Source of the DNA: Arachnia propionica
GTDB lineage: Bacteria > Actinomycetota > Actinomycetes > Propionibacteriales > Propionibacteriaceae
NCBI RefSeq assembly: GCF_003859805.1
Contig: NZ_RQZG01000004.1
Location: 124,001-188,000, forward strand
Direction: 5' to 3'
DNA length: 64,000 nucleotides
Positions 6,417-30,033 of the stretch are shown in pieces. How positions within the stretch are numbered: the stretch's first letter is position 1; each line of letters opens with the position of its first letter. The notes under the pieces were generated by a model that saw only the letters and a list, made by a program, of their open reading frames with translations, was not told the DNA's origin and searched no databases. Made by a program: the position numbers and the translations under genes.

Positions 6417-7498
6417 AGCTCCCCCTCCTCGATCGTGGCGGTCTCGCCGAAACCGGGACCGACTCCGAGACTGAGGCGAACCCGTGGGGCGAGCATGTCC
6501 GCCAGTCGGTTCCACGATGCGGCAGGGTCGGTGTGGGAGCAGGCGTTGTGGGCGCCGGGAGGTGCGTCGGTGACCAATGCGGTCGCGGCGCAGACGGCTC
6601 CGGTCGCGGCGTAGGAGTCGGTGCACGAGACCCTGGCCCAACTGCGTTCCCGACCGTCGGTGGCCTCGACCAGGATGTGGAAGTACGGTTGCCGACCGAA
6701 CAGGTCGGTACGGGCAGCGGCGATCGCCTCCTGAACGCTGGCATCCCCGCCCAGACAACGTCCCAGGACCGTCGCGGTCACGGCCCCGTCGGTGACATTG
6801 GCCCAGTGCAGGTGCTCCGAACCGGATGCCCTGGCCCTGTCCTCCGCCTCCTCGTCGAGGTGGCTGTGTGCGACAGCGCTCGGTGGGAACGGTGCGGGGG
6901 GCGGCGGGGTCTGTTCGGGACGCACGGCCACGTGCCGCCCCCTGGCCAGCATCGTGCCCACCCGGTTGCCCTGCTGGGCGGCATGCAGGTACTCCTGGAT
7001 CCCGGCCAGTGTGAGGGGCTGGAGGCCACCGCACCAGCCATGGACCTGCCGGGGTGGCTGCCCGAGGCGAGCCGTGGCCACGGTGACCGCGAGTCCGACC
7101 AGCCCGGGCTGCACCCCGGCACCGAGCAACGCACTCGTCCCCGATGCCGCCGCCAGTGGTGAGAGCACCGGGACGAGCCCCTCCGCTCCGGGATCCACGA
7201 AACGCACCCCTGCCTCCAGCACCAGCCGGGCCACGGCCTCGGAGTAGCGGTGTGACGGCCCCGCGCAGCACACCACCACATCGGCATCGACCAACAGGTC
7301 GGCGATGGCCCCGGACGACTGGTTCCCAAAGAGCAGGTCCTCCAGGTCCAGACCGGGGTGGATCCTCGCCCCGGGGCAGGCCGCGGCGACCTGTGTGGCG
7401 TCACGCCCCACCGCGAGGACCTCGACCCCGGCGGTGAGCAGCTGCGCCACGCAGGAGCGTCCCACGGCTCCTCGTGCCCCCAGGACCACGGCCCTCAT
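6413..7498 (-). CDS. Saccharopine-dehydrogenase-like NAD(P)-binding protein of the NRPS cluster
   Basis: 361 aa protein with an N-terminal Rossmann motif, MRAVVLGARGAVGRSC, and a layout like saccharopine dehydrogenase / trans-acting enoyl reductase-like proteins (LVLEAGVRFVDPGAEG, then LLGAGVQPGLVGLAV). The start at ATG 7498 has GGAGG 8 nt upstream and overlaps the NRPS stop (ATGA). It sits between the second NRPS and the thiazolinyl reductase, so it is likely a tailoring enzyme. It could oxidise or reduce a C-N bond in the peptide or supply an unusual building block. I cannot choose between these. Canonical yersiniabactin and pyochelin clusters do not have this gene. Confidence 0.7.
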   Translation of the reverse strand: MRAVVLGARGAVGRSCVAQLLTAGVEVLAVGRDATQVAAACPGARIHPGLDLEDLLFGNQSSGAIADLLVDADVVVCCAGPSHRYSEAVARLVLEAGVRFVDPGAEGLVPVLSPLAAASGTSALLGAGVQPGLVGLAVTVATARLGQPPRQVHGWCGGLQPLTLAGIQEYLHAAQQGNRVGTMLARGRHVAVRPEQTPPPPAPFPPSAVAHSHLDEEAEDRARASGSEHLHWANVTDGAVTATVLGRCLGGDASVQEAIAAARTDLFGRQPYFHILVEATDGRERSWARVSCTDSYAATGAVCAATALVTDAPPGAHNACSHTDPAASWNRLADMLAPRVRLSLGVGPGFGETATIEEGEL

Positions 7499-10400: not shown

Positions 10401-12945
10401 TCGCTGTCCCGTAGGGCACCGAGCGTGCGGTCTCGGGCAGTGGGGCAGTGACCTCGTTCAGGACCGACCAGATGGCTGCCTCGGTGGCACCACCGAGTGC
10501 CCAGAACCGTGTGTTCGGGGCGTGGCGCCATGTCTGGGCGGGCTGCCCGACCGGAACCCAGTCCCCCGAGACCAGAACCACCCGCAGGGCGAGTTCCGCG
10601 GTCGGTTGTCGCCCCTCGAGGTGGTCGAGCAGCAGCTGCAACTGGGCGGGGACGGAGTTCCACACGCTCACCCGGTGTTCCACCAGGGAGGCGGCCCAGG
10701 CACTCGGATCCGCAGTCGTGCCGCTCGTCGGGATCACCATGCGTCCACCGACGCCGAGGATCCCGAACATGTTGAACACCGACAGGTCGAAGCTGTGCCG
10801 GGACACCGCCAGGACGGCATCGGTGGACCCGAGCCCGAGGCGTGCCTCAAGATCAGCGAGAGTCGTGCGGGCCTGCCGGTGCGTGACCACGACTCCCTTG
10901 GGGTGCCCCGTCGATCCCGAGGTGAAGATGACGTAGGCCTCGGCGTCGGGAGGGACCGTGCCGGACGGCAACTCCACGGGCCGGTCCGCCCGGCCCCGCA
11001 GGACCTCGTGCAGCTCATCCATCAGTTCGGTGCCGGAGTCGATCAGCATCGTCTCGCCCTCGCGTCGCAGGACCTCGAGCACCGCCTGACGTCTCGCCTC
11101 GGGCCAGTCGGGCTCCAGGGGGACGTAGCATCCCCCTGCCAGCAGCACACCGAGCTCGACCGCGACCTGCGCCGCACCGGGCGGCAGCACCACCGCCACC
11201 CTCGGAGCTCCCCCTGCCGTGAGGACGTGCCGACTCACCGTCGTCGCCGCTGCCATGAGCTGCCCCCGGGACACCACGTGATCGCCGTCGATGACGGCAG
11301 GGGCGGTCGGGTCCTCACGCCACCGGGCGATGAGGGGCTCGTGCAGGGTGGCTGGCAGGACGTCCAGACGCCCGGTGCGCTCGATGGCCGCAGGGGCGCG
11401 TCGTCGCAGCGGGTCGGTGGCAGGGATCCCGTGGCGGCTGATCGTGTCGACGAGGTCGGAGAAGTCGGCGAAGGCGGCATCCAGCACGGTGGCCGAGATC
11501 CCACCGTCCCTGCTGTCCCAGTCGATGCTCACCCCACCCTGTCCGGGGACGGGGGAGAACTGGATGTCCAGGAGCACCTGAGGGGTCTGGCTCAGACCGT
11601 GTCCCGGACGTGGGCGCAGCACCGGGTCGGGGAGCACCGCGGCCCCGGCACCGATGGTCGAGGTGATCACCACCGGCACCTGGAAGCGTTCTCCACCCTG
11701 CCCGGCCGCGATGAGCCGGGACAGTTCGACACCGGAGAGGGCATTGTGCTGCAGGGCCTCGAAGGTCGCTTCCTGGGCGGTGGCCGCCAGCTCGGTCAAC
11801 GAGACATCGGCGCGGCCGTCCACCTCGACCAGGAGGGTGCTGGTGAAGTCCCCCACGATCCGGTTCACGTCAGGGACCACGGGCTTGCGATCCGCCAGGG
11901 TCATCGCGACGAGACCGCGGTCGGGGCCACCGTGACGGTGCAGCACCCGCGCCACTCCTGCCACCAGCAGCGAGGTCGTCGTGACACCACCGTCCCGGGC
12001 TGCGGTCTCGACTCCCTGCCACTGTTCGTCGGACAGGTGGTGACTGCGTCGGGTGAAGCGGATCGTGGCGTCATGGTGTCCTGTCGGGGCCGTCGGGTCC
12101 CCGGACTCCGGGGAGAGGGTGATCGGCTCCGCGAGGGTGGTGGCCCGCTCGCTCCAGAATTTCTCTGCCCGGTCGTGCTCGGCCCTTCCCCGGGGTGAGG
12201 CGGCCTGTTCCCGGACCGTCGCGAGGTAGTCACGGAATGTCAACGACGGCGGCTGGACCGGGCGTCCCGACAGCACCGAGGCCAGGTCGCCCAGGATGAC
12301 ACCCAGGCCGATGAAATCGGTCAGGAGCAGATCCACGGAGACGTGCAGGACGATGTCCTCCACACCGACGGTGACGACCACGTCGATCAGCGGTTCCAGG
12401 GTGCTGACATCGGTGATCGACCCAGTGACGACGGGGTGGGTCCGGGTCTGCAGCTGCTCCCTGACGGTCTCCCTGTCGGATGCGCTCCTGACCCGGAGCG
12501 GGACCTCGAGGTCAGGGACCACCTGTTGCCACCCCTCGCTGTGGACGATCGCCCTCAGCATCGGGTGACAGTCGACGACCTGGCGCCAGGCGTCGCGGAG
12601 ACGGCCGACGGGATCCTCGCCCAGGACCGTGGGGTCGACGTCGAACTCGGCGTAGCCGTGGCAGCCGACACCACCGTCGCTGAAGGCGCTGGTGCGTCCC
12701 ACCAGGTAGGACCCCTGCACATCGGTGAGGGGGAACGGGTCATGGGCGCCGTCCGGATCACGCCGTACCTGGTCCTGACCCCGGTGCCGCAGCAGATCCA
12801 TGATCTGGGCCCGGGAGTCCTTGATGCGATTCCTGAGGTCGACGGTGAGCGCCCCTTCGGGAGCACGGAACCGCAGCGTCTCGCCGTCCACCCACAGGGT
12901 CACCCCGATGGCGTCGAGATGTTCGATCAGTGCCGTGGGTGTCAC
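7495..12945 (-). CDS. NRPS B: docking-Cy-A(MT)-PCP-TE, terminal module
   Basis: Terminating NRPS (1816 aa). Domains in order: a TubC-type N-terminal docking domain (residues 1-55); a heterocyclisation domain (about 65-500) with intact DLLLTD at 205-210; an adenylation domain (about 515-1410: YVIFTSGSTGHPKGV, YRTGDRG, LPLTANGKIDR) interrupted by a SAM methyltransferase (VLEIGGGVGGTTDAVLE, about 1175); a carrier protein (NFFDLGGDSLL, about 1452); and a type I thioesterase (about 1525-1800, nucleophile LFGYCMGG). The visible pocket letters (FDLSVFNMF, WNSVP, SGDW, ATEAAIWS) fit the DLFN...IW cysteine code. The layout equals PchF of pyochelin (Cy-A-MT-PCP-TE). GTG start at 12945 has GGAGGG upstream and overlaps NRPS A as GTGA. 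Predicted: adds, cyclises and methylates the last cysteine, then releases the chain. Confidence 0.92.
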   Translation of the reverse strand: MTPTALIEHLDAIGVTLWVDGETLRFRAPEGALTVDLRNRIKDSRAQIMDLLRHRGQDQVRRDPDGAHDPFPLTDVQGSYLVGRTSAFSDGGVGCHGYAEFDVDPTVLGEDPVGRLRDAWRQVVDCHPMLRAIVHSEGWQQVVPDLEVPLRVRSASDRETVREQLQTRTHPVVTGSITDVSTLEPLIDVVVTVGVEDIVLHVSVDLLLTDFIGLGVILGDLASVLSGRPVQPPSLTFRDYLATVREQAASPRGRAEHDRAEKFWSERATTLAEPITLSPESGDPTAPTGHHDATIRFTRRSHHLSDEQWQGVETAARDGGVTTTSLLVAGVARVLHRHGGPDRGLVAMTLADRKPVVPDVNRIVGDFTSTLLVEVDGRADVSLTELAATAQEATFEALQHNALSGVELSRLIAAGQGGERFQVPVVITSTIGAGAAVLPDPVLRPRPGHGLSQTPQVLLDIQFSPVPGQGGVSIDWDSRDGGISATVLDAAFADFSDLVDTISRHGIPATDPLRRRAPAAIERTGRLDVLPATLHEPLIARWREDPTAPAVIDGDHVVSRGQLMAAATTVSRHVLTAGGAPRVAVVLPPGAAQVAVELGVLLAGGCYVPLEPDWPEARRQAVLEVLRREGETMLIDSGTELMDELHEVLRGRADRPVELPSGTVPPDAEAYVIFTSGSTGHPKGVVVTHRQARTTLADLEARLGLGSTDAVLAVSRHSFDLSVFNMFGILGVGGRMVIPTSGTTADPSAWAASLVEHRVSVWNSVPAQLQLLLDHLEGRQPTAELALRVVLVSGDWVPVGQPAQTWRHAPNTRFWALGGATEAAIWSVLNEVTAPLPETARSVPYGTAMDDQGIWVLNAEDEPATIGQIGDIVIGGDGVAAGYLGDPGLTAAAFFTHPATGERCYRTGDRGRMLPDGRIEFLGRIDGQVKIRGHRIELGEIESVLGAIPGVARAVAAVNRSGSGSGTLVAAVLPETGDHHALFHAERAAAVTGVMSAADRDFTAGLDVESMLELAALVEESALHRMAVQVARGEGHGMTGLIDTLGAGRHADLVQRWVAMLCERGWVSMADQTVQLLRTPDVAEEKARWDRIQQLDRHIGYGSEHLAYVRRCLDELPGLLRGDVDPLALLFPEGNTHVARAAYGENLFARWINTVVATGIAELARRAEEAGRTLRVLEIGGGVGGTTDAVLEALGTVLGNDLTGVDYLFTDVSRFFFEEVTTRWPSLRTGLFDINSPDGVVPGSVDVILSANVLHNARHIPQVLEGLAGLLVPGGVLAAIDSTVVNPTLMTTMEFKEGLSDFTDLRNETGKPFLDLTEWVQVLAESPFTLAGCFPEGPDHPMRIGNQHALWATTGGGQAPLDPDRIIAHLASTLPHYMVPRTVAILDSLPLTANGKIDRARVAALTDQPGLSLSTSSTATELDPCQQRVAAIWQEVLGLPGTPLHPGSNFFDLGGDSLLLARSIGRLRRELPGGEAVAWDDALRRIVADPTIAGCARTFTSEEDTGPGGAAQSAVTELLPADGVGDEVLVLVHDGSGGLAPYQDVIEVLRRTTPRPRVLGLRRTTDDGYLETPPAELLDQLSDRYATELISLGVSRVQLFGYCMGGLIAAGVATRLAEADIEVTGCTVVSSYRIPFAVEDELMLDHSFAKLLHLDPADAGIDVDEHALGRALTEVRRHSPTRIAPGAIREVAEPELAAALDRAPADSGERLRRLAVSDPRSTWTPETLALVKEVFRQSMAAVAQWDAPAYLGDICFLRQRGDLHFLPTLREDMTDFWSTFCLGELDVQDIEGTHFDCLGPDNADGVVTILNRRWER

Positions 12946-15900
12946 AGTGTTCCCTCCTCGATACCGGTGGTGGAGTCGTCAATGGTGGATGGATGGGGGG
13001 ACAGGCCGCTCACAGCGGTGACGAACCTGTCCAGATCGGGATTGACCAGGAGCATTCGCAGGTCGATCCCCGGATGGATCCGTTCGCGGAGCAACCGGAC
13101 GCACCGGGTCGCCCGCAGCGAGTCACCACCCGCGGTGAAGAAGTTCAGTCCCTGCCCCCCCGGTGGGAGATCCAGGATCTCCCGCCAGATGTCGTGGATC
13201 TGATCGTGCAGCGTTGCCCCGGCCTGGGAGGGGGGCGTGGCGACCGGGGCGACCGAGGCCGCCAGCCGGGTCACGATCCCGGACACGTGGTGCTGCACCT
13301 CGGTGCTGCCCAGCAGCTCGGTGACGTGGTCAGCGGTCAGGTGCAGCCCGTGTGCATCGGCCGAGACCTGGAGGTCGAGCATGGTCTGAGGGGTCTGTGA
13401 AGCGGCATGGACCAGCCGACCGAAGCCGAAGTCGTCGAGGCGGGTGCCCTCGGGCGCGAGACCCAACCCGCAGGTGAAGACCACGGGGAGGAGCGCGGCC
13501 ACGGGGTCCCCGGTGCGCTGCAGCACCCGACGTTGCACCCACAGGGTTCCTGCGGTGTCGTGGTCCCCTGCTTCGGCGAGCTGGGTCTGGATGCGGGCAG
13601 CCAGGTCCCACAGTTCCTCGTCGGGTCGGACGTGGCAACCGACCGGAACCAGGGAGGTGAAGTCCCCGACGACCCGGTCGATGCCCGGTTGGGTCGGGTC
13701 ACGATCGAATCGGGTCACGTTGACGGTGAGTTCCTGCTGGCCTGACCAGGCCGCGAGTTCGCCCGCGTAGGCGGCCAGCACCACCGCGGCAGGAGTCACC
13801 CCGTTCCTCGCCGCAACCGTGCGGACCTGCTGCCACGTCGAGGGGTCCAGATCAGCTGCGACACGTGCGAAGGTGGGCCCGTCCACCCGGGTGAGTCGTT
13901 CCCGGGGCACCAGGTCGGGGGCCGCAGGCAGGCGTTGCGCGACCTGGTCCCAGTACTTCCGGTCCTCCTCGACCCGGTGTCGTGAAGCGGCATCGGTGGG
14001 TGACTCACCGGTGACCCAGGGGTGGGCGGCAACGTGATCCGCGAAGGAGGGGCCGGGGGGAAGCGGGCTCGTGTCACCGCCGTAGCGCCGCCCGATGTCT
14101 GCGAGCACGAGCAGCATCGATGCGCCGTCGAGCACGGCGTTGTCCATGCCGATCCCGATCGTGGCGGCCTCTCCCGGCTCACGCCGGAAGCGGATCACCA
14201 GCGCCGAGTTCCGGCTGAGATCGACCACCTCGGTCCTGGTGGCGCCGCGGGGATCCGGGTGTTCGGTGACCACCGACGGCACGGTGTCGACGATCCGGGC
14301 CTCCTGGTCGACGAGGGTGCGCAGCCCCGGATGGTCCCGGACGACGGTCTCGACCGCGGCCGTGAAACGGGCGGCGTCGAAGTCGTCGCACCGGAACTCG
14401 TAGTAGCAGTGCGCTGAGACCCCACCCAGCAGCTGTTGGGGAGCTCGCCCGGCCAGATAGGCCTGCTGCACCTCGGTGAGGCGGTGTCCTGGGCGGGGGG
14501 TCTCGGGCGAGGGGACCGGTCCCGGTCCAGCAGGGGTGGGTGGACTGCTCGTGTCGCGGGTCGACAGCAGGGCGGCGAGATCTGCCAGGCGCGGGTGGTT
14601 GAACAACTCCACCAGCCGTGGCCGATGTCCTGCCGCACGAAGGTCGGCCAGGACACGGGTCGCCGTCAGTGAGTCCCCACCGAGGGCGAAGAAGTCCGAG
14701 TCGTCATCCACCCCGGAGACGCCGAGATGACGCTGCCAGAGGTCGCGCAGCAGGTTCCGGACCCCGACGGCCGGTGGACTCGACGGTGCGGGTTCCGGCG
14801 CTGCTGCGATGGTCGGGGCCGGTGCTCGTGAGACGGTCGGGGAAGGGGCCTTGGCCCGGGCATGCAGGATCAGGAAGGCGGGGTCGTGTGCAGTCACCGA
14901 CACCGGACGCCATCCGGCCTCCTCCACCATCCGCCACCAGTGGGGCAGCCCTTTCAACGGACCGTCGGCCTTGACGACGTCCGGGTTCACCAGGGCTGCG
15001 GACAGCAGTGAGGTGATCTGGAGGTCGGGGATCTCGAGGACCCAGCAGCGCCCACCGGAGATCCGGGTCAGTTCGGTGCGTAGCCGAGGGTCCCGGTGCA
15101 GCGACGCGCAGGCCACCACCAGGTCGACGGGCTCCACCGGAGCACTCTGGAGGGCACGCACACCGCGGTCGAGAGCCAGGTCACGCAGCAGGGCGTCGGG
15201 CTCGACGCTGATCCATCGGAGTCGGTCGGCACGTCCCGGGTCCGTGGTCCGCAGCGCGGCGAGAACCACATCGCGGAAGAGACCGATGCCACAGCCGAGC
15301 TCGACCACGGTGGCAGGATCGGGCAGCCCCCGGATCACGGAGACCAGGTCCTGCAGCACCGCGTCGATGCCGGGACTGGCCAGCAGGAGGGCCTGAGGCG
15401 ACAGATCGGGGTGCTCCAGCAGCGTCGTCGCCCGGGAACGCCCGGTGATGCAGTCCGCCAGCAGCCCGGCGAGGTCCGGAGGTACAGGGACGGGGGCGGT
15501 GGTGGGCTGGTATGCGTGCCAGGCCGCCGCAACCGCCTCGAGCCCCGGCCGGACTGGATGATCCGCGGCTGCTTCACGGGCACTCACCAGGAGGGATTCC
15601 TGCCAGGCCAGGTCACCGGGTCCCGGGGAGGAGGCCTCGGGTGCGGAGGGAGCGACACCGAGGGCTTCGGCCATGCCGTGCAGGAGCAGGTCGATCACGT
15701 CGCCGTCGACGATTCCCTCGGGGTGGTCGAGGCGGATCTCGAGGCCGTCGTCGCGGGACTCCACCTGACAGTCGACGAGGACACCGGGGGTGCTGGTCAG
15801 GGACCACACCGGCCGGAGGTGACCGACGGTGGCGTCCCGGGCCGTCGCCACCCCGATGGTGCTGGTGAAGACCACCGGGTACGCTGCCCGGCCCGCGTGG

Positions 15901-18900
15901 ACGATGCGGTTCCCATCCGGCGCGATCCCGCCGGCGGCCCGTCCGAGTGCACTGTGCACCTCGGCGAGGTCCACCCCGGGGCCCGCAGCACACAGGGACA
16001 GCGTGGTGAAGTTCCCGAGCACCTCGTGGTCGAGATCTGCGGGGCGGTAGGACACGGGCACGATGATCCCCATGCGTTCCTGACCGGTGACCCTGCCCAG
16101 CTGCTCGGCGAATGCGTGCAGCAGCAGGGCCGATTCGGTGACCCCGAGTTCGCGGGCACGTCGGGTCAACTGGGCCACCTGGGCGGTCGGGACGTGGAGG
16201 CGACGGCTGGCCGCCCACACCGGTTCGCCGGAGGGGTGGCGGTGGGCCAGGGTGGGTGCCGGGGGCAGTGCCGGGGCGTCCTCGGGAACCGGGTCCTCCT
16301 CGATGGCCGCCTGCTGGGCGCAGTGTCGCCGGAATGCCGTGAGGTCTGGTGCCACGCTCAGGCGACGGGCAACGCCGGCGGCGTCATCGAGCAGACAGGA
16401 GAGGACGCAGGCGAGTGAGCGGGCGTCCAGCGGAAGATAGCTCAGGCGCAGGCCGACGCGTCCTGGGGTCCCGTCGGTCAGCAGCTCCAGCACCGGTGAG
16501 TGTTCCAGGTCCAGGACCGGGTCACGGAGCGCCGTGGTGAGGTCCGCCACGTGACGAGGGACCACAGGGCTGCTGGCAGCCACGTCCTGGCAGGTGTCCT
16601 CGACCCTGCGACAACGCAGGACGTCGAGTTCGGCGACGAGGTCGGTCGCCGTGGCGGCCAGCCTCGCCAGATCGATCGCGGAGCCGTCGCGGGTCTCCAG
16701 GATCGTGGCGAACAGCGGTGAGGTGCGCACCACGCCGACCATGCCGTCGGCTCCCAGGGCGTAGGCCCGCTGCAGGGGGGTCAGCGGGAACGCTCCTGTC
16801 GGGGTCACCGTGGTCGTGGTGGTGGGGGAGGGGACACGAGTCCTGCGACAGAGCTGCTCCAGGTCTGTGAACCGAGGTGCTGAGAAAAGATCTGCGACGG
16901 TCACGTCCAGGCCATGACGTCGTAGCCTGGAACACAGGTCGGTCGCCATGAGGGAGTCTCCGCCCACTGAGAAGAAGTTCTGTTCCACGTCGACGTGGTC
17001 GACACCGAGCACCGCCATCCATTCCTCGGCGACCGGGGAGTCGACGGGGTCGGCGTGGCCGCCAGGACGTCCTGCCTCCAGGAGCTCTCTGGCCCAGCGG
17101 CGGTCCGTCTTGCCATTGCTCGTCAGGCGCAGTTCCTCGGCCCGGGCGAACACGGCGGGGATCATGTACCCGGGAAGACGTTCACGAAGTGCCGCGATGA
17201 TGGTCTCGTCGTCAGGTCCTTCCCCGACGAGGACCGCACCCAGGGCCGACCGGTTCCGGATCGGGGTCACCACGGTCTCCTGCACCCCGGGGAGCTGATG
17301 CAGGGCATGCTCGACCTCGCCGCACTCGATACGGTGTCCTCGCACCTTCACCTGGGTGTCGGCACGACCGAGGAAGATCAGCAGTGGGCCAGGGAGCCAC
17401 ATCCCGAGGTCCCCGGTCCGGTACCAACGCTCGCCGTCGACCTCGACGAACCGGTCCGCGGTCAGCTCCTCGGCGGCGTGATATCCGGCCGCCACCCCGA
17501 CCCCGCCGATCCACAGCTCACCGGTGACCCGGTCGGGACAGTCACGACCCGAGGGATCGGCGACCCGGTAACGCTGGCCGGACAGCGGGATCCCGTAGGG
17601 GATCGAGGCCCAGGCCGGGTCAAGGTCCTCCGGAGCGGTGACGACGAACTCGTTCGACCAGATGGCGGCCTCCGTCGCCCCTCCCATGGCCACCAGGCAT
17701 GCCCCGGGAGCGACATCGGCCAACCGAGCGGGCAGCCCCGGGTCGATCCAGTCCCCCGAGCACAGCACCCGACGCAGTCCAAGCGGCTGGTCCGCGGCCA
17801 CGCACAGCATCTCCGCCAGGTTCGGCACCGAGTTCCACACGGTGACGGCGTGTCTCCTCACCAGATCCGCCCAGTGGAAGGCGTCGCGGCGAGAAGCCTC
17901 GGAGATCAGCACGACCGCGCCACCGACGGAGAGGGGACCGAAGATGTCGTAGACGCTCAGGTCGAAGTCGAGGGCGGAGACCGCGAGGGTTCGGTCCGCG
18001 GGGCCCACGTCATTGCGGGAGTTGACGTCGGCCACGGTGTTCGCGGCACTGTGGTGCCGGATCGCCACCCCTTTCGGTTCACCCGTGGAACCTGAGGTGT
18101 AGATGATGTACGCCACCTGGTCCTCGTCCACGTCGACCGGGGAGCCCAGCTCGTGGCCGTCCTCGCTCGCGATGACATCCGAGTCGACGAGCAGGGCCAT
18201 GCCCGATGCGTCACGGATGCGGGCCACCCGCTCCTCGGGTTGGTCGACCCCCAGCGGCAGGTAGCAGCATCCGGCGTACAGCACGGCGAGGACGGCAACC
18301 ACCTGATCGGGTCCCTTGGGCAGACGGATCCCGACGACGGAGCCCGGGGCGACCGTGGCCGCGATCCGGCCGGCCAGCCCTCTCACCCGGGCCATCAGGT
18401 GCCGGTAGGTCATGACGCCCGTGGGGTGGGCCGGGTGCTGTGCGGGGTCCCACAGCAGTGCGGGGGCATCCGGGGTCCGCGTCGCCGCAGCGATGACGGG
18501 GGCATGGAGCAGACCTCCAGCGACTCGTGGGACGGAGTTCACCCTCGCTCGGGCATCGAGGGTGTCCTGGGGGAGGGTGATCAAGCTCTCCAGGGTGGGG
18601 TCGAGACCGTCGCGCCCGGCGGCTGCCAGCCTCAGCAGGGCGTTGATGAAGGTCGTGAACAGCTGCTCGGCGACATGAGGGTCGAGGGCTCCCCGCCGCA
18701 CGTCGAAGGAGACGGTGACCCCGGCGTCGGTGATGCGGATGATCTGGCAGTCGATGATGACCTGTGGTGTGGAGGAGCGTGGGGTCTGGGCCTCACCGAG
18801 GGTCTCGATCACCTCGGCGGGGAACAGCGGTGTGTCCGGTGCGTAGGTGAAGACGTAGGGCGACATCCCGCTGTGACCTTCCTCAGCGAGCGCACGTCGG

Positions 18901-19859
18901 AGTTCCTCCGTGGCCTCGACGCCTCGTGAGAGACGGCACCGGAGCTCCTGTCCTGCTTCGGCCGCCAGGGTGGCCAGGTCAGACGCCGGGAGGGAGCGGT
19001 GCAGGAAGGTGCGTGTCCGGTCGGCGACGTGGTCCTCGGTGCCTCGGGTGTCCACCCCGGTGACGGTGACGATGAACTCCGGGACCGTCGACCAGCGACG
19101 CAGGCACTCCTCGAAGACCCCGAGCACCAGGGCGGTCGGGGAGACCCTCAGCCGACGGGCGTGTCCGGCGATGTGGCGCCAGGTCCCATCAGGGATCAGG
19201 TGGAGCAGCCGATCAGTGGTGGCCGTGGGGGTGGGTGTGCCTTCGGGGAGCTCGGGGGCGGGGAGGACCGGTTCGCGTCGTGGGTCAGGGTCACGTCTTG
19301 CCGACGGTGCAGGACGTCGTCCCAGCGCTGTGCTCAACTCCGGGAAGGTGTACCGGGTCAGTGGGGACGAGGGGTGGGCGAGACCCGCCGCGAGGTCAGC
19401 TGCCATCCGTCCGATCCCGGCGAGATCGGTGACGATGAGTGAGGCCAGGATGTGGACGATCGTCGTGCCATCCGGCAGCAGGGTGGCCTCGACGCTCCAG
19501 GTCCGTCCGGTGGTGAGGTCCACGGGGAAGTGGTTGAGCCGATGACGGATGGCCGTGAGTTCTTCCTCAGGCGTGGGACAGGAGCGCAGATCGTTGACCG
19601 TCAGGGTGGCGGGAGCAGGCCGACGATCCTTCAGGTGACCCGGGTCGGGCATCGTCGCCCGCAGCGAGGGATGTCGGTGGAGGCCACGTACTGCTGAACC
19701 CAGACGGTCGATGTCGATGGTTCGGCCTGCGAATTCCACATATCCCAGACAGTGTTGGCCACCGAGGGGTTGGTGTGGGTCGGCGCCGATGGCGTACGCA
19801 GCCTGGATCGGTGAGGTGGGAAGCGTGTCGGTCATGTCAGAGCTGGTCAACGAGGTCAT
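12942..19859 (-). CDS. NRPS A: Cy-A-PCP-Cy-MT-PCP-Cy-PCP
   Basis: First NRPS (2305 aa). I read Cy1 (about 15-420), A (about 430-950: YIIYTSGSTGEPKGV, YRTGDLG, TSNGKTDRR), PCP1 (about 965-1035, GGDSLMAT), Cy2 (about 1045-1440), a SAM methyltransferase-like block (about 1518-1660, VVELGCGIGLF), PCP2 (about 1695-1765), Cy3 (about 1780-2200) and PCP3 (about 2215-2290). Only module 1 has an A domain. Its visible pocket (FDLSVYDIF, WNSVP, SGDW, ATEAAIWS) fits a DLYN...IW cysteine code, so it may load all three carriers, as in HMWP2. Cy3 has intact DNAVLD (1906-1911), but Cy1 and Cy2 read SLIVTD (140-145) and SYLPLD (1140-1145), so the first Asp of DxxxxD is Ser. No aryl carrier protein precedes Cy1. 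Starts: ATG 19859 or ATG 19835; neither has a good ribosome site. Confidence 0.9.
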   Translation of the reverse strand: MTSLTSSDMTDTLPTSPIQAAYAIGADPHQPLGGQHCLGYVEFAGRTIDIDRLGSAVRGLHRHPSLRATMPDPGHLKDRRPAPATLTVNDLRSCPTPEEELTAIRHRLNHFPVDLTTGRTWSVEATLLPDGTTIVHILASLIVTDLAGIGRMAADLAAGLAHPSSPLTRYTFPELSTALGRRPAPSARRDPDPRREPVLPAPELPEGTPTPTATTDRLLHLIPDGTWRHIAGHARRLRVSPTALVLGVFEECLRRWSTVPEFIVTVTGVDTRGTEDHVADRTRTFLHRSLPASDLATLAAEAGQELRCRLSRGVEATEELRRALAEEGHSGMSPYVFTYAPDTPLFPAEVIETLGEAQTPRSSTPQVIIDCQIIRITDAGVTVSFDVRRGALDPHVAEQLFTTFINALLRLAAAGRDGLDPTLESLITLPQDTLDARARVNSVPRVAGGLLHAPVIAAATRTPDAPALLWDPAQHPAHPTGVMTYRHLMARVRGLAGRIAATVAPGSVVGIRLPKGPDQVVAVLAVLYAGCCYLPLGVDQPEERVARIRDASGMALLVDSDVIASEDGHELGSPVDVDEDQVAYIIYTSGSTGEPKGVAIRHHSAANTVADVNSRNDVGPADRTLAVSALDFDLSVYDIFGPLSVGGAVVLISEASRRDAFHWADLVRRHAVTVWNSVPNLAEMLCVAADQPLGLRRVLCSGDWIDPGLPARLADVAPGACLVAMGGATEAAIWSNEFVVTAPEDLDPAWASIPYGIPLSGQRYRVADPSGRDCPDRVTGELWIGGVGVAAGYHAAEELTADRFVEVDGERWYRTGDLGMWLPGPLLIFLGRADTQVKVRGHRIECGEVEHALHQLPGVQETVVTPIRNRSALGAVLVGEGPDDETIIAALRERLPGYMIPAVFARAEELRLTSNGKTDRRWARELLEAGRPGGHADPVDSPVAEEWMAVLGVDHVDVEQNFFSVGGDSLMATDLCSRLRRHGLDVTVADLFSAPRFTDLEQLCRRTRVPSPTTTTTVTPTGAFPLTPLQRAYALGADGMVGVVRTSPLFATILETRDGSAIDLARLAATATDLVAELDVLRCRRVEDTCQDVAASSPVVPRHVADLTTALRDPVLDLEHSPVLELLTDGTPGRVGLRLSYLPLDARSLACVLSCLLDDAAGVARRLSVAPDLTAFRRHCAQQAAIEEDPVPEDAPALPPAPTLAHRHPSGEPVWAASRRLHVPTAQVAQLTRRARELGVTESALLLHAFAEQLGRVTGQERMGIIVPVSYRPADLDHEVLGNFTTLSLCAAGPGVDLAEVHSALGRAAGGIAPDGNRIVHAGRAAYPVVFTSTIGVATARDATVGHLRPVWSLTSTPGVLVDCQVESRDDGLEIRLDHPEGIVDGDVIDLLLHGMAEALGVAPSAPEASSPGPGDLAWQESLLVSAREAAADHPVRPGLEAVAAAWHAYQPTTAPVPVPPDLAGLLADCITGRSRATTLLEHPDLSPQALLLASPGIDAVLQDLVSVIRGLPDPATVVELGCGIGLFRDVVLAALRTTDPGRADRLRWISVEPDALLRDLALDRGVRALQSAPVEPVDLVVACASLHRDPRLRTELTRISGGRCWVLEIPDLQITSLLSAALVNPDVVKADGPLKGLPHWWRMVEEAGWRPVSVTAHDPAFLILHARAKAPSPTVSRAPAPTIAAAPEPAPSSPPAVGVRNLLRDLWQRHLGVSGVDDDSDFFALGGDSLTATRVLADLRAAGHRPRLVELFNHPRLADLAALLSTRDTSSPPTPAGPGPVPSPETPRPGHRLTEVQQAYLAGRAPQQLLGGVSAHCYYEFRCDDFDAARFTAAVETVVRDHPGLRTLVDQEARIVDTVPSVVTEHPDPRGATRTEVVDLSRNSALVIRFRREPGEAATIGIGMDNAVLDGASMLLVLADIGRRYGGDTSPLPPGPSFADHVAAHPWVTGESPTDAASRHRVEEDRKYWDQVAQRLPAAPDLVPRERLTRVDGPTFARVAADLDPSTWQQVRTVAARNGVTPAAVVLAAYAGELAAWSGQQELTVNVTRFDRDPTQPGIDRVVGDFTSLVPVGCHVRPDEELWDLAARIQTQLAEAGDHDTAGTLWVQRRVLQRTGDPVAALLPVVFTCGLGLAPEGTRLDDFGFGRLVHAASQTPQTMLDLQVSADAHGLHLTADHVTELLGSTEVQHHVSGIVTRLAASVAPVATPPSQAGATLHDQIHDIWREILDLPPGGQGLNFFTAGGDSLRATRCVRLLRERIHPGIDLRMLLVNPDLDRFVTAVSGLSPHPSTIDDSTTGIEEGTL

Positions 19860-24562: not shown

Positions 24563-25321
24563 TCAGGGTCGGTGGGGGCGCTCGGGAAACTCGAACGTGC
24601 TCAGGAAGTCCCGGGCCCGTTGTGTCGCCGGGGCGGTGAAGAACTGCTCCGGCGGGGCCTGTTCGACGATCCGGCCGTGGTCCATCAGCACCACGCGATC
24701 GGCGATGGCCCGTGCGAAGTTCATCTCGTGGGTGACGATGAGCATGGTCATGCCGTCGGCGGCGAGTTCCAGCACCACGTCGAGCACCTCCCGCACGATC
24801 TCCGGGTCCAGGGAGGCCGTGATCTCATCCAGGAGCAGCACCTCCGGGTGCATCATCAGTGCACGCACGATGGCGACCCGTTGTTTCTGCCCGCCGGAGA
24901 GCTGGCGTGGCAACGAGCCGTCGCGGCCGGCCAACCCCACCCGTTCCAGCAGGGCCAGGGCCTCAGCCCGTGGTTCCTCGCCCACCCGTTTCTGCACCAG
25001 CCTCGGTCCGAGCAGCAGGTTCTCCAGCACGGTGAGGTGCGGGAACAACTCGTAGCTCTGGAACACCATCCCCACCCGGGCGCGGATCTCCCGCCAGTTC
25101 GTTCCCGTGCGGGAGACCGGGACGCCGTCGAGCTCCAGGCTTCCCGAGGTCAGTTCCTCCAGCCCGTTGAGGCACCGGAGCAGCGTCGACTTCCCGCAGC
25201 CGGAGGGGCCGATGAGGGCGATCACCTCGCCCTCGGCGACGTCGAGACTCACGCCGTCGACGGCACGCACCCCGTTCGGGTACTCCTTGACGATGTCGGT
25301 CAACCTGAGAACGGGGGTCAC
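24563..25321 (-). CDS. Amino-acid (probably cysteine) ABC transporter ATP-binding protein
   Basis: ATPase of a polar amino acid uptake system (252 aa). Walker A is GPSGCGKST, signature LSGGQKQRVAI, Walker B VLLLDEITASLD, with the GlnQ/HisP-type sequence FQSYELFPHLTVLEN in the Q-loop region. I place the start at GTG 25321: it overlaps the permease stop as GTGA and has AAGGAG 6 nt upstream. An ATG two codons earlier would touch the ribosome site. Last gene of a four-gene operon whose leader peptide points to cysteine as cargo. Confidence 0.93.
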   Translation of the reverse strand: MTPVLRLTDIVKEYPNGVRAVDGVSLDVAEGEVIALIGPSGCGKSTLLRCLNGLEELTSGSLELDGVPVSRTGTNWREIRARVGMVFQSYELFPHLTVLENLLLGPRLVQKRVGEEPRAEALALLERVGLAGRDGSLPRQLSGGQKQRVAIVRALMMHPEVLLLDEITASLDPEIVREVLDVVLELAADGMTMLIVTHEMNFARAIADRVVLMDHGRIVEQAPPEQFFTAPATQRARDFLSTFEFPERPHRP

Positions 25322-25992
25322 GACCATCTCCTTTCCAGAAGCCGTGCCACCCGGGAGATCGGGAAGCACAGCGCGAAGTAGAGCAGCAGGATGGCGCCGT
25401 AGATCCACAGGGCACCATCGGGATGGGTGAAGCGGTTCGGGTCGATGATCTGCTGGCCGGTCTTCAACACCTCCACCACCCCGATCAGGGCCACCAGGGG
25501 AGTGGTCATGATCATGCGGTTGGTGAGGTTGATGGTGGTGGGCAGCAGTCGCCGCACCGCCTGGGGCAGGATCACGCTCCGCTGCACCTGCCATGGGCTG
25601 AGCCCCAGGGCGCGGGCACTGTGGTACTGGTGGCCCGGGATCGAGGTGATGGCGGCACGCACCAGATCCCCCATCTCGGCCGTCCCCCAGAGGGTGAAGA
25701 CGATGACCGCAGCCGTCCAGCCGTCGAGATTGATGCCGAAGTAACGGGTGAGGTCGAAGAAGACCACGAACAGCAGCACGATCTGCGGCATGATCCGCAT
25801 GGTCTCCAGATAGGTGCGGGTGATCAGGCGTACCACCGGGCGCCTGGAGGTCATCACGACCCCCAGGAGCGTCCCCAGCAGGATCGACACCCCCATAGCG
25901 ACCAGCGCGATGGAGGCGCTCACCCACAGCCCCTCCAACAGGCGCAGGAGGTTGCGGCCCTGGAACAGCAGGTCAATCCCCGAACGTCGCAC
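25318..25992 (-). CDS. Amino-acid ABC transporter permease (HisM/HisQ type), second
   Basis: 224 aa inner-membrane permease of the polar amino acid family with about five helices. The EAA-type coupling loop is visible as ITSIPGHQYHSARALGLSPW (about residues 115-134), followed by QAVRRLLPT. It overlaps the preceding permease gene by 20 bp and the ATPase by 4 bp. Together with the 219-aa permease it forms a heterodimeric channel. Confidence 0.92.
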   Translation of the reverse strand: MRRSGIDLLFQGRNLLRLLEGLWVSASIALVAMGVSILLGTLLGVVMTSRRPVVRLITRTYLETMRIMPQIVLLFVVFFDLTRYFGINLDGWTAAVIVFTLWGTAEMGDLVRAAITSIPGHQYHSARALGLSPWQVQRSVILPQAVRRLLPTTINLTNRMIMTTPLVALIGVVEVLKTGQQIIDPNRFTHPDGALWIYGAILLLYFALCFPISRVARLLERRWS

Positions 25993-26632
25993 GACGCATC
26001 CTCCTCTCCAGCCATCCGGCGCCCAGGGAGATCGGCAGCAGGATCAGCAGGTAGAACACCACCAGCAACAGCAGGGCCTCCGCCGTGGTGTAGTCCGAAC
26101 CGATCTGCTCCTTGGCGACGTGGACCAGGTCCGGCAGGGCGATGATGCTCACCACCGAGGTCTCCTTGACGAGGAAGATCACGTTCGCGGTCAGCGCAGG
26201 CATCGAGATCGCCGTCGCCTGGGGCAGCACCACGTGGCGCAGGGTCTGGGTGCTGCTCAGCCCCAGGCTCTGCGCGGACTGCCACTGGATGGGCTCAATG
26301 GCGTCCAGACCACTGCGCAGCGCCTCCGCCATGAAACTTCCGCCCAGGAAGGTCAGGCCGATGACGGCACACTGCTCGGCCTCCAGCTTCACCCCCAGCT
26401 TCGGCAGACCGTAGTAGAGGAAGAACAGCTGCACCAGCAGGGGCGTGTTGCGGGACACGGCGACGTAGCCTGCCACCAGGGTGCGGAGCACCGGAATGCG
26501 CAGCTGGGTGATGGCGGCACAGCACGACCCGACGAGCAACGCCCCGACGATGCCGAGGGCCGCCACCCGCAGTGTCAACAGGGCTGCCTCGGCGAAGACC
26601 GGCACCGAGGCGTGGACCACGTCCCAGTTCAT
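25973..26632 (-). CDS. Amino-acid ABC transporter permease (HisM/HisQ type), first
   Basis: 219 aa polar amino acid permease with about five helices and the coupling loop LDAIEPIQWQSAQSLGLSST followed by VVLPQATAISMPAL. It starts 4 bp after the binding-protein stop codon. It partners the downstream 224-aa permease; both retain the conserved loop, so the channel looks functional. Confidence 0.92.
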   Translation of the reverse strand: MNWDVVHASVPVFAEAALLTLRVAALGIVGALLVGSCCAAITQLRIPVLRTLVAGYVAVSRNTPLLVQLFFLYYGLPKLGVKLEAEQCAVIGLTFLGGSFMAEALRSGLDAIEPIQWQSAQSLGLSSTQTLRHVVLPQATAISMPALTANVIFLVKETSVVSIIALPDLVHVAKEQIGSDYTTAEALLLLVVFYLLILLPISLGAGWLERRMRRATFGD

Positions 26633-26636
26633 CCGA

Positions 26637-27500
26637 TCAGACCTGGCCGCCCTCGACGACGAGCTCGTCCGCCGGGACGGCGTCGCCGTAGACGGGGCGC
26701 AGGGTCTGTTCGAAGTCGGCGTGGAAGAACTGCTCCTTGCCGAGCTCGACCAGGTGCTGGTTCAGCCACTCCAGCAGCGTCGTGTTGCCCTTGGGGACCG
26801 CGCCGGCGATGGTGTCGGGATCACCCAGGCTGGTGATCCCGGCGCTGAATCCCTCGGCGCCGAGCGCCCAGGCCAGGGCCTCGGTGTTGTCCGTGACCCA
26901 GGCGTCCCCGCGGCCGTCGGTGAGGGCGCTGGTGGCCTCGGTGTACTGCTCGTACTTGGTGAGCTCCACCTCTGGGTGGTTCTTCTCCAGGAAGGTCTCG
27001 GCGGTGGTGCCCTTGACGACGATGACCTTCCTGCCGGCCAGCTCGTCGGCGGTGGTGATCGGGGCGGCATCGGGGGAGACCACTCCGAGGGAGACCTTCA
27101 TGTACGGGTTCGCGAAGTCCACCTTGGCCTTGCGTTCCTCCGTCACGGTGAAGTTGGCCAGGATGAGGTCGACCTTCGCGGTCTCGAGGAATTCGACGCG
27201 GGAGGCGGCCTCCACGGGCACGTACTCCACCTCGAGGGCCAGGTCCTCGGCGATCCGTTCTGCGTAGACGACGTCGTATCCGGCGTAGCCGCCGTCTGCG
27301 TCGACGTAGCCGAAGGGGGCCTTGTCACTGAACACGCCGATGCGGATCCTGCCGGAGGACCTGATCTGCTCGAGGGTGCGGAACGACCCGGAGCCTGTCG
27401 GGGTGGAGGTCTTGGGCGACGAGGCGCCGGAGCAGGCGGCGAGGCCGAGGGGTGCGGCGGTCAGGGCGGCACCGAGCAGGGTACGACGGGAGATGGGCAT
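26637..27500 (-). CDS. Cysteine-type solute-binding lipoprotein
   Basis: Periplasmic-type binding protein anchored as a lipoprotein (287 aa). Signal sequence MPISRRTLLGAALTA with twin Arg, ending in lipobox LAAC. The family 3 core is close in wording to the cysteine-binding protein CjaA of Campylobacter as I recall it: APFGYVDADGGYAGYDV, VEAASRVEFLETAKVDLILA, NFTVTEERKAKVDFANPYMK, VSLGVVSPDA and KGTTAETFLEKNHPEVEL. Start ATG 27500 has AGGAG 5 nt upstream; a longer frame to 27560 would hide the signal. With the cysteine-rich leader peptide upstream, cysteine or cystine is the most likely ligand. Confidence 0.9.
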   Translation of the reverse strand: MPISRRTLLGAALTAAPLGLAACSGASSPKTSTPTGSGSFRTLEQIRSSGRIRIGVFSDKAPFGYVDADGGYAGYDVVYAERIAEDLALEVEYVPVEAASRVEFLETAKVDLILANFTVTEERKAKVDFANPYMKVSLGVVSPDAAPITTADELAGRKVIVVKGTTAETFLEKNHPEVELTKYEQYTEATSALTDGRGDAWVTDNTEALAWALGAEGFSAGITSLGDPDTIAGAVPKGNTTLLEWLNQHLVELGKEQFFHADFEQTLRPVYGDAVPADELVVEGGQV

Positions 27501-27594
27501 GGTGACTCCTGGGTGTGTGGAGTGGTGAAGGGTGCGGCGGAGGACCGCCGGGGCGGTCATGTGGTTCGCGTGGGGCGCGGGGGCGCGGGGCTCG

Positions 27595-27675
27595 TCAGAA
27601 CTGACGGCTGCGGCAACACCGGCAGGACGACGCGGTGAAGTGCGCGCCGAGCTGCATCATCCGGGGGTGTTCCAT
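27595..27675 (-). CDS. Leaderless cysteine-rich leader peptide of the cysteine importer operon
   Basis: 26-codon frame MEHPRMMQLGAHFTA followed by SSCRCCRSRQF and TGA. It has three Cys codons in four positions near its end (residues 18, 20, 21). Its ATG lies 7 nt after a consensus -10, so it is translated without a leader. Actinobacteria are known to use such poly-Cys upstream peptides to sense cysteinyl-tRNA supply by attenuation. Ribosome stalling at the Cys codons would change folding of the 95 nt before the binding-protein gene, where GACCGCC/GGCGGTC (27543-27558) can pair. The ligand inference is mine; the frame, promoter and codons are seen directly. Confidence 0.72.
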   Translation of the reverse strand: MEHPRMMQLGAHFTASSCRCCRSRQF

Positions 27676-27682
27676 GTCCTTG

Positions 27683-27711
27683 AACCTATGCGGCCCCGAC
27701 GGGGGAGTCAA
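27683..27711 (-). promoter_or_regulatory. Promoter of the cysteine importer operon
   Basis: Minus strand TTGACT (27706-27711), 17 bp spacer, TAGGTT (27683-27688), then 7 nt to the leader-peptide ATG. It is the best sigma-70-like promoter in the window and places the leader peptide at or next to the 5' end of the mRNA. Confidence 0.75.
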
Positions 27712-27790
27712 CCACCCGCGCCCAAGGTCCACATGCTGAAAAGGTCTGGCCATTGGTCAGGTGTGTCGGCCATGAAGATCATGTAAAGTT

Positions 27791-27811
27791 CTCAGACGTC
27801 TGATGTCTGAG
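27791..27811. promoter_or_regulatory. Candidate operator upstream of the sialidase gene
   Basis: A perfect 12-bp palindrome, TCAGACGTCTGA (27792-27803), is followed by a third half-site GTCTGA (27805-27810), giving overlapping dyads 24 bp before the sialidase start. It is probably a repressor site, perhaps for a GntR- or NanR-like sialic acid regulator. No such regulator is in the window. Confidence 0.5.
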
Positions 27812-27834
27812 CAATGAAGCTTGAAGGAGAGCTG

Positions 27835-30033
27835 ATGTCTCAACCACTGAAACTGATACGTCTGCTGGTGACCTGCATCGCCGTCACCGCGGCGACCCTC
27901 CTGGGGGCCGTCACCGTCCGGGCCGACGAACCGGGACGCACCGGGCTGCAGTCCTTCGACCTGGATCGGGACCTCGACCTGGGGTGGACCAGTCAGAAAC
28001 TCGCCGACGGTGGGACCGCAGGATTCACCTGCTCCCGCATCCCGGCCCTGACCACGGCCAACAACGGGTGGGTCATCGCCGCGTGGGACGGCCGTCCCGG
28101 TACCTGTGCCGACGCGCCCCAGCCGAACTCCATCGTCTACACCGTCTCCAAGGACGACGGGGCCACGTGGAGTGAGGTCAAGGTCATGGCCCAGGGCAAC
28201 CCCGATCCCGAGCAACGCGGTTTCTCCGACCCCAGTTTCGTCGTGGACCGGGAGACCGGACGGATCTTCGCATTCTTCGTCATGAGCTACGACTGGGGGT
28301 GGCCGCAACGTGACCGCACCATCACCGACCCCAGGCACGTCATGCACGCCGTCCACTTCCACTCCGACGACAACGGCGAGACCTGGGAGGGGCCCACGGA
28401 GGTGACCGACGCCCTCAACCCGGCCCCGAGGAACGAGGTCTGGACCGGGCGTTTCGCGGCCTCCGGTGAGGGCATCCAGCTGAGGTACGGCACCCATGCC
28501 GGACGACTGATCCAGCAGTACACCGTCTACAACACGGTCACCGACGACTACTGGGCGGTCTCGCTGTACTCCGACGACCACGGCGCCACCTGGCAGGCCG
28601 GAGCCCCCGTCGGCCCCGGCATGGATGAGAACAAGGTGGTGGAGCTCTCCGACGGCACGGTGATGCTCAACTCCCGCAAGTCCGACGGGACCGGCGGCCG
28701 CTACGTCGCCCGGTCCACCGACGGGGGTGAGACCTGGTCCGAGCGCACCACCGACCACACCCTCATCGACCCCCAGAACAACGCCTCCATCATCCGCGCC
28801 TTCCCGAACGCCCCCGAGGGATCGGCCGACGCGAAGGTATTGCTGTTCTCGAACTCGGCGGCGTCCTCGCGCACCAACGGCACCATCAGGGTGTCCTTCG
28901 ACGACGGCCGTACCTGGAGCGATTCCACGGTCTTCGAGCCCGGGGCGATGTCCTACTCCACGATGACCACGCTCGCCGACGGGTCGCTCGGGATCCTCTA
29001 CGAACGGTCCCATCCCACCATCTGGTTCGGGAAGCTGTCCTGGAAGTCGCTGGGGGCCACCGGCATCACGATGACCTCGCCGACGGTGCTCCACCGTGGT
29101 GAGAACCAGGTCGAGATCACCATCGCCAACCCCGTCGGTGAGGCCCTGCCCGCCGGGCAGCTGCACCTGAGCACCCGTGGCGGCCTGACGGGTGATGCCA
29201 TCCAGGTGCCGACCGTCCCGGCTGGTGGAACGGTCACCGTCATGGTCCCGCTCACCCTGCCCGCCGACGCCAACCCGGGACCCCTCACCCTCCAGGGCAA
29301 CTACGTGGTGGAGGGCCGCACCGTGGTCAAGGAGATCCCGGTCACGGTCGAGCTGCGCGACGGCGAGGAGATCACCGACAAGCTGCTGGAGGTGCTGATC
29401 AATCGCAAGTCGGAGCCGCAGGAGTCCTACCAGGCGGGCGACAAGGTGTCGTTCTGGGTGCGGGTCAGCAACCGGGCCGACCACGCCATCACCGCCTACC
29501 CCGTCGGCGACGGCTGGGAGAACCTCTTCCCGACCTGCCGGTGGGCCAACCTGCCCACCCAGCCACGCGGCAACTACAACTGCGGGCTGACCGGCAACTC
29601 CGGGAACAACCCGCCCACCTACACCATCACCGCCCAGGACATCGAACGTGGCTGGTTCATCCCCACGATGACCTGGAAGGTGGCGGCGGCGAACGACCGG
29701 GAGGCCAGGAACCCGATCCAGACCCTCACCTTCACCGGTGAGAAGGTGCTGTTGCCCACGTCTCCGCAGGAGACCCCGGAGCCGAAGCTGGAGCTCTCCA
29801 CCGCGGTGGTGCCGTACCGCACGATCCTGATCGCCAGGCTGAGCGGTTTCCAGCCCGAGGAGCAGGTGGCCCTCCAGGTCGGCACCCGTCGGGCCCGCAC
29901 CGTGACGGCGGACGCCGAGGGCAGGGCCACCCTGCACCAGGCCATCGACCGCCGCAGCTGCCCTGAGACCTGCACGGTCACGGCGACCGGGGAGGCCTCC
30001 GGCCAGGTCAGCGCCGAGTTCCGTCGAGGCTGA
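27835..30033 (+). CDS. Secreted sialidase (GH33) with C-terminal accessory domains
   Basis: Exo-alpha-sialidase, 732 aa, acting outside the cell to release sialic acid from host glycans. Signal peptide MSQPLKLIRLLVTCIAVTAA with cleavage near VRA-DE. The catalytic propeller shows the Arg motif SRIP and five Asp boxes: SKDDGATW (about 105), SDDNGETW (177), SDDHGATW (246), STDGGETW (295) and SFDDGRTW (356). Tyr in YSTMTTLADGSLGILYERS fits the nucleophile region. After about residue 405 come a NEW3-like beta-sandwich, another beta domain, and an ~80-residue C-terminal domain (from about 653) with a Cys pair. That last domain is shared with the small protein at 50936. No LPxTG anchor. The ATG at 27835 has AAGGAGAG upstream. 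Confidence 0.95.
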   Translation: MSQPLKLIRLLVTCIAVTAATLLGAVTVRADEPGRTGLQSFDLDRDLDLGWTSQKLADGGTAGFTCSRIPALTTANNGWVIAAWDGRPGTCADAPQPNSIVYTVSKDDGATWSEVKVMAQGNPDPEQRGFSDPSFVVDRETGRIFAFFVMSYDWGWPQRDRTITDPRHVMHAVHFHSDDNGETWEGPTEVTDALNPAPRNEVWTGRFAASGEGIQLRYGTHAGRLIQQYTVYNTVTDDYWAVSLYSDDHGATWQAGAPVGPGMDENKVVELSDGTVMLNSRKSDGTGGRYVARSTDGGETWSERTTDHTLIDPQNNASIIRAFPNAPEGSADAKVLLFSNSAASSRTNGTIRVSFDDGRTWSDSTVFEPGAMSYSTMTTLADGSLGILYERSHPTIWFGKLSWKSLGATGITMTSPTVLHRGENQVEITIANPVGEALPAGQLHLSTRGGLTGDAIQVPTVPAGGTVTVMVPLTLPADANPGPLTLQGNYVVEGRTVVKEIPVTVELRDGEEITDKLLEVLINRKSEPQESYQAGDKVSFWVRVSNRADHAITAYPVGDGWENLFPTCRWANLPTQPRGNYNCGLTGNSGNNPPTYTITAQDIERGWFIPTMTWKVAAANDREARNPIQTLTFTGEKVLLPTSPQETPEPKLELSTAVVPYRTILIARLSGFQPEEQVALQVGTRRARTVTADAEGRATLHQAIDRRSCPETCTVTATGEASGQVSAEFRRG

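Follow-up and report, generated by a model that had tools for sequence, protein, structure and literature searches.

The analysed stretch of DNA (64 kb, hereafter the window) carries a short, predicted leaderless leader frame that, judging from its sequence and that of its relatives, is probably a cis-acting, cysteine-responsive attenuator of a putative cysteine ABC importer operon. The stretch belongs to a 3.4-Mb genome whose nearest named relatives are Propionibacteriaceae, [Pseudopropionibacterium] massiliense among them, and the feature sits on the minus strand. An orthologous binding-protein gene occurs in seven genomes of the genus and the leader is present in all seven, and a cysteine-sensing switch is therefore judged probable. 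Unrelated poly-Cys frames precede the same gene elsewhere and, together with the conservation within the genus, therefore make attenuation of the importer well supported. Counting against an attenuator are the small number of Cys codons, two or three in most genomes and just one in the orthologue L034, and the absence of an intrinsic terminator and of a conserved RNA switch in the analyses below.

A predicted leaderless frame lies upstream of the importer operon

The initial annotation had read TTGACT-N17-TAGGTT-N7-ATG (27711–27675) followed by 26 codons that include Cys-Arg-Cys-Cys, and each of these elements is confirmed. On the minus strand the spacer between TTGACT and TAGGTT is 17 nt, the ATG is at 27675, the stop codon is at 27597–27595 and the Cys residues are at codons 18, 20 and 21. 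From the leader stop to the start of the binding-protein gene at 27500 there are 94 nt, and AGGAG at 27510–27506 precedes that start (Table 1). The description of the promoter as near-ideal goes too far, since TAGGTT matches TATAAT at three of six positions; a σ70 scan with the E. coli consensus reported no site at the leader promoter, although TAGGTT does fit TAnnnT. We used a fixed definition of a leader (TAnnnT 5–8 nt before A/GTG, 12–45 codons, and at least three Cys among the last 12 codons), and the frame is the sole match to it on both strands of the window. A search of Rfam over 26600–28000 gave no match at the gathering score. The leader likewise has no NCBIfam or Pfam match, and the other leaders tested have no NCBIfam match either. 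A secreted BNR-repeat (sialidase-like) gene (window 27838–30033, plus strand) is divergent and adjoins the importer promoter.

Table 1 Features of the leader region and the putative importer operon (window coordinates)
Feature	Coordinates	Strand	Evidence or remark
−35 element TTGACT	27706..27711	−	TTGAC in 7/7 genus orthologues, 17–18 nt from −10
−10 element TAGGTT (TAnnnT)	27683..27688	−	7 nt before ATG; TAnnnT 6–8 nt before ATG in relatives
Leader ORF MEHPRMMQLGAHFTASSCRCCRSRQF with stop, predicted leaderless	27595..27675	−	Orthologous in 7 genomes, codons 2–13 synonymous changes only
Codons 18–21 Cys-Arg-Cys-Cys (TGC CGG TGT TGC), candidate sensing codons	27613..27624	−	Cys18 7/7, Cys20 6/7, Cys21 only here
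C-rich, G-poor spacer, candidate Rho-loading region	27511..27594	−	C minus G = 0.39, extreme among same-size windows in 20 kb
Short local hairpin over Shine-Dalgarno site (ACTCC/GGAGT)	27505..27523	−	Predicted fold; unchanged by modelled stalling
Binding-protein lipoprotein, cysteine-binding clade (SBP_bac_3)	26637..27500	−	Domain and solved-structure matches
ABC permease 1 (cystine/ectoine/glutamine type)	25973..26632	−	Domain match
ABC permease 2	25318..25992	−	Domain match
ABC ATPase	24563..25320	−	Open frame runs to 25927; gene start inferred from ABC_tran match

The operon likely encodes a cysteine importer

The solved structures closest to the binding protein are 1xt8, which we take to be C. 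jejuni Cj0982 (249 bits, E 6e-73), and 2yjp (236 bits, E 5e-69), and the next best solved relative reaches at most 121 bits (E 4e-34). The resemblance to cysteine binders noted at the outset is thus upheld by a wide margin. CjaA/Cj0982 binds cysteine (PMC4178425), and PMC7170509 describes NGO2014 (2YJP) as a binding protein for L-cysteine. The binding protein here belongs to the same clade as those of the 1xt8 (C. jejuni Cj0982/CjaA) and 2yjp (N. gonorrhoeae NGO2014) importers, and from these relatives we conclude that the operon likely encodes an importer of cysteine. With a cysteine-clade binding protein and this operon layout, the leader is placed before a cysteine-metabolism operon, as poly-Cys leaderless attenuators are.

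The window also contains NRPS genes (7495–19859, minus strand) whose closest solved relatives are of the pyochelin and yersiniabactin types (7emy, dihydroaeruginoic acid synthetase). The closest solved relative of a second condensation-like domain is Irp2, and a neighbouring gene (5412–7271, minus strand) has a weak Irp3-like reductase match. The NRPS looks cysteine-cyclising, and a cysteine-using pathway is plausible; the two NRPS genes and the Irp3-like gene (window 5412–19859, minus strand) probably make up a pathway of the thiazoline siderophore kind, which is found in few relatives. The initial annotation had tied the leader to this NRPS. However, of the six relatives in which leader and importer are both retained, five have no match to the Irp3-like reductase partner (the sixth has a weak 36% match), and a link between leader and NRPS is therefore not supported. 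Near window position 20430 a candidate leader (L165) lies before the NRPS; it was rejected, as it appears to fall inside another coding frame.

The leader is conserved as a peptide within the genus

We surveyed the genus by tblastn of the leader and by an orthologue search of the binding-protein family. The seven genomes with leader and importer are those of the window, L032 (the same match as L191, G460), L034 (L192, G464), L033 (L113, G055), L114 (G144), L193 (G455) and L206 (G461, on a truncated contig). No close leader match was found in twelve sampled congeners without the importer (among 15 genus genomes), and when 397 genomes of the phylum were searched with an HMM of the leader, the matches were borderline only and none of them was a leader. 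The DNA around the leader diverges among the seven genomes while promoter and leader persist: TTGAC, a spacing of 17–18 nt, TAnnnT and 6–8 nt to the ATG are kept in every one (spacers counted by eye).

Residues 1–13 of the leader are invariant in the seven genomes, their codons showing synonymous changes only. Across codons 2–13, variation is found at 6/12 third positions and at 0/24 first and second positions (Fisher p = 5e-4), and across codons 2–20 with L034 omitted the corresponding counts are 8/19 and 1/38 (p = 3e-4); the genomes are related, so that these p-values are indicative only. Over codons 2–18, pS is about 0.2–0.8 and pN is 0–0.1. Codons 2–13 vary at third positions only, and the leader peptide itself is therefore under selection, which suggests a nascent-chain component beyond the counting of Cys codons. 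The same pattern refutes the idea that the frame arose by chance in GC-rich intergenic DNA and merely happens to contain Cys codons, to which we give next to no credence: the small size of the frame is all that speaks for it, and besides the coding-type substitutions in seven genomes, the frame is unique in the window and frames of its kind are strongly enriched before the importer gene.

Past residue 20 the leader tail varies freely. The orthologues end in SSCRCSRQF, FYTSSCYPLA, SACRCSRSARRF, SACRCSRPVRQF, SACRCLPAAWQL and SACRCSRLTCQF; the whole leader of the window reads MEHPRMMQLGAHFTASSCRCCRSRQF. Retention of the Cys codons had been set beforehand as a test of the proposal, which passes it for Cys18 (invariant, 7/7) and Cys20 (kept in 6/7), but Cys21, and with it the Cys-Cys pair, is unique to the window genome. 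True Cys runs appear in more distant orthologous loci, and what the genus conserves is Cys18 and Cys20. The poly-Cys run is thus not supported as the conserved feature, and the N-terminal peptide is kept better than the run, whereas a leader that did no more than count Cys codons would not be expected to show this. The L034 orthologue (L034:1364–1432, plus strand) keeps MEHPRMMQLGAHF, contains a single Cys and ends in SSCYPLA before its stop codon.

These findings raise the possibility, which we hold tentatively, that a sequence-specific arrest peptide, MEHPRMMQLGAHFTAS[S/A]C, rather than the number of Cys codons, pauses the ribosome around codons 18–20, with the Cys codons in the arrest site and with an effector that is perhaps cysteine, cystine or Cys-tRNA. 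A conserved nascent-chain amino-acid sequence is one mark of arrest peptides, and codons 2–13, with synonymous changes only, have it here. Such an arrest would account for invariant residues 1–13 followed by a free tail after residue 20 and for the N-terminal peptide that L034 keeps with one Cys only, and residues 2–13 would be needless for a plain codon-counting attenuator. However, the unrelated poly-Cys peptides before orthologous importers indicate that counting of codons came first in evolution, and the leader showed no resemblance to known arrest peptides.

Conservation at the peptide level, in a peptide that contains two His as well as its two or three Cys, would also fit a small functional peptide (one that binds metal or haem via Cys/His, for example) that is co-expressed with the importer and has no role in cis regulation. 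We consider this improbable, because the frame always lies directly before the importer, its C-terminal end varies, one orthologue has lost Cys20, and in other families the place of the frame is taken by unrelated poly-Cys frames.

Unrelated poly-Cys leaders precede orthologous importers

In other Actinobacteria, unrelated leaderless Cys-run frames lie before the orthologous genes, namely MFDKFSFRGTATCACCCLCC (L037), MEKKNTQYCFACALTAMVMSCMCCSVCCR (L048) and MFARQLIVPASMDAGRCLCCCR (L050), and further such frames are MAHDFLTSACNAQCCAMCCCR (L052), MANRTTQMHTAMRGACVRTCMCPMCCMCCCR (L105) and MTSDIVFRMCPAFAGASCCRR (L110); one distant actinobacterial leader ends in CCMCCCR directly before its stop codon. 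Independent poly-Cys leaderless frames before importer orthologues were found in other Propionibacteriaceae and in Actinomycetaceae. The fixed definition was matched in 10/44 regions upstream of the importer gene, as compared with three matches in 625 kb of other sequence, an enrichment with a nominal Poisson probability below 1e-16 for regions that are not all independent. There is redundancy among the matches (the L050 leader is also that of L201, L105 and L109 are near-identical, and the window and L206 share one), and nine leader types are left. Two of the three background matches are leaders of the same gene that lie just past the 450-nt limit (L036 and L203), and the third (L040) precedes a rhodanese/family 2A encapsulin locus. 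L041 and L198 have poly-Cys frames too, but no TAnnnT in register.

At the L040 locus, the leaderless poly-Cys frame MSDTRVIELAAGRQQTCACCCMCR (L040:426–500, plus strand) stands before two genes, one for a rhodanese-domain protein and one for a family 2A encapsulin shell protein (L040:579–1163 and L040:1135–1998), and lies ~3.4 kb upstream of the importer gene; control by poly-Cys leaders may extend to such sulfur-related encapsulin loci. At L207, before a second copy of the binding-protein gene in G076, we found the frame MSTDRAHFSTTEFTVAMSCCRMR with TATCTT 6 nt before its ATG. This frame and the genus leader share AHF and a late Cys pair, possibly by chance.

The Corynebacterium orthologues have no leader under the fixed definition. 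Five of their upstream regions (L035, L038, L039, L043 and L086) have in its place a common TAGACAGRGTGGTGTA shortly before the binding-protein gene, which presumably resembles the McbR operator. No such leader was found at cysK in the same genomes, and in this limited search no wider cysteine regulon was seen. A CC[R/C/W]-stop pattern found no leaderless leader in the stretches of the window genome that were examined; this pattern misses leaders that do not end in CC-X-stop, such as the one described here.

The RNA between leader and gene is C-rich and lacks an intrinsic terminator

The initial annotation had placed a pairing segment between the leader and the binding-protein gene, and our folding analyses do not bear this out. 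The leader-to-gene RNA is no more stable than shuffled sequences (MFE z −0.79), and an alignment fold of the seven sequences gave z −2.9 overall, a value carried by palindromic CAUG at the two start codons, with no convincing covariation. When a ribosome was modelled at the Cys codons, the Shine-Dalgarno site was not opened in the window (6.3 to 7.6–7.9 kcal/mol), nor was it opened consistently in the orthologues, although such folding models are weak tests of a ribosome-binding-site switch. A hairpin or ribosome-binding-site switch was set aside on these three grounds, and a transcription attenuator of the trp/ilv type is ruled against by the absence of an intrinsic terminator between the leader and the first gene; the sole terminator-like site in 26500–29500 lies inside the binding-protein gene, on the other strand.

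The same analyses bear on translational attenuation in the style of M. smegmatis, in which leader RNA would pair with the ribosome-binding site of the importer until ribosome pausing at the Cys codons freed that site. This reading follows a published mycobacterial model, as cited in PMC13236596 and PMC9031893, and most orthologues have a predicted fold in which the Shine-Dalgarno site is paired; in L034 it is the Ser-Ser-Cys codons themselves that are predicted to pair fully with it. We nevertheless consider it doubtful, because in the window the site is predicted to pair with a neighbouring ACTCC outside the leader, modelled stalling does not open it, the pairing partners differ among orthologues, and stability and covariation are unremarkable.

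The composition of the spacer points elsewhere. Between leader and gene the fraction of C is 0.55 and that of G is 0.20, and the excess of C over G is greater in spacers behind leaders than in the upstream regions of orthologues that lack a leader (15 versus 19 loci, p = 3e-4; p = 0.003 when the genus is collapsed to one). This skew favours Rho, and the C-rich spacer thus lends weak support to Rho-dependent rather than hairpin control. A ribosome at Cys18–21 would cover little past the stop codon, which counts against a Rho step.

Discussion

Cysteine-responsive attenuation of an importer by a leaderless frame, as the initial annotation had proposed, stands in its main lines: the leader is predicted to be leaderless and contains Cys codons, the importer is of the cysteine type, the leader is conserved, and independent poly-Cys leaders precede the same gene, but the pairing segment, the Cys run as the conserved feature and the NRPS link are not supported. 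In the model that we favour, and as the promoter spacing suggests, transcription would most likely start at the ATG of the leader or within two bases of it, and 70S ribosomes would begin translating the leader right at the 5′ end. A shortage of charged Cys-tRNA would make the ribosome pause at Cys18/Cys20, shortly before the stop codon, and importer expression would rise; when cysteine is plentiful, the ribosome would reach the stop and be released, and downstream expression would be damped. These pause and release steps are suggested by mycobacterial precedent, by the Cys codons and by the kind of gene that follows. As to the coupling, the C-rich RNA beyond the stop of the leader would most likely be a site of Rho-dependent termination, for which support is weak, and not part of a conserved hairpin switch, and the nascent peptide MEHPRMMQLGAHFTAS[S/A]C, which is constrained in the genus, probably adds to the pause, as the substitution pattern suggests. 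With still more reserve than we attach to an arrest peptide as such, we raise the possibility that a poly-Cys counter has turned into a sequence-specific arrest peptide in the genus, such that MEHPRMMQLGAHFTAS[S/A]C holds the ribosome at C-R-C and the paused ribosome controls Rho termination before the importer.

With the attenuator proposed here, leader control that responds to cysteine would reach beyond the biosynthetic operons of Actinobacteria and include a cysteine importer. One transporter would then have several regulatory solutions, namely unrelated poly-Cys leaders, a leader with a conserved peptide, and, in Corynebacterium, an operator that by eye is McbR-like. The conserved peptide offers a testable case of a codon-counting attenuator evolving into a nascent-chain sensor.

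TnaC of the E. coli tna operon is an arrest peptide with Rho-dependent attenuation that senses free tryptophan for induction. The leader described here is similar to TnaC in that a short conserved leader peptide is followed by a C-rich candidate Rho region; the sequences are unrelated, however, and arrest here is hypothetical.

Nearer relatives are found among the Actinobacteria. As PMC9031893 describes for Canestrari 2020, poly-Cys leaderless ORFs attenuate in M. smegmatis in a cysteine-responsive manner, and PMC13236596 and PMC9094748 describe the same attenuators. In these accounts the Mycobacterium frames resemble ours in being short and leaderless (predicted so here), in having late Cys codons, and in lying before a cysteine-metabolism operon. 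Compared with that type, as far as the descriptions in the citing papers convey it, the leader here has few Cys codons, of which only C-R-C is conserved, and modelling found no conserved pairing that would hide the ribosome-binding site and no release that depends on stalling; the N-terminal peptide is strongly conserved, and the target is a cysteine ABC importer. Seliverstov et al. (2005, PMC1262725) also predicted candidate poly-Cys leaders, which precede cys operons in mycobacteria and in P. acnes, and cbs in B. longum; the cys leaders had no terminators, and the authors proposed Rho. Those leaders and the one described here share Cys codons near the stop, the absence of a terminator hairpin and the proposal of Rho, but they carry Cys runs and serve cys operons and cbs, whereas here C-R-C stands before an importer.
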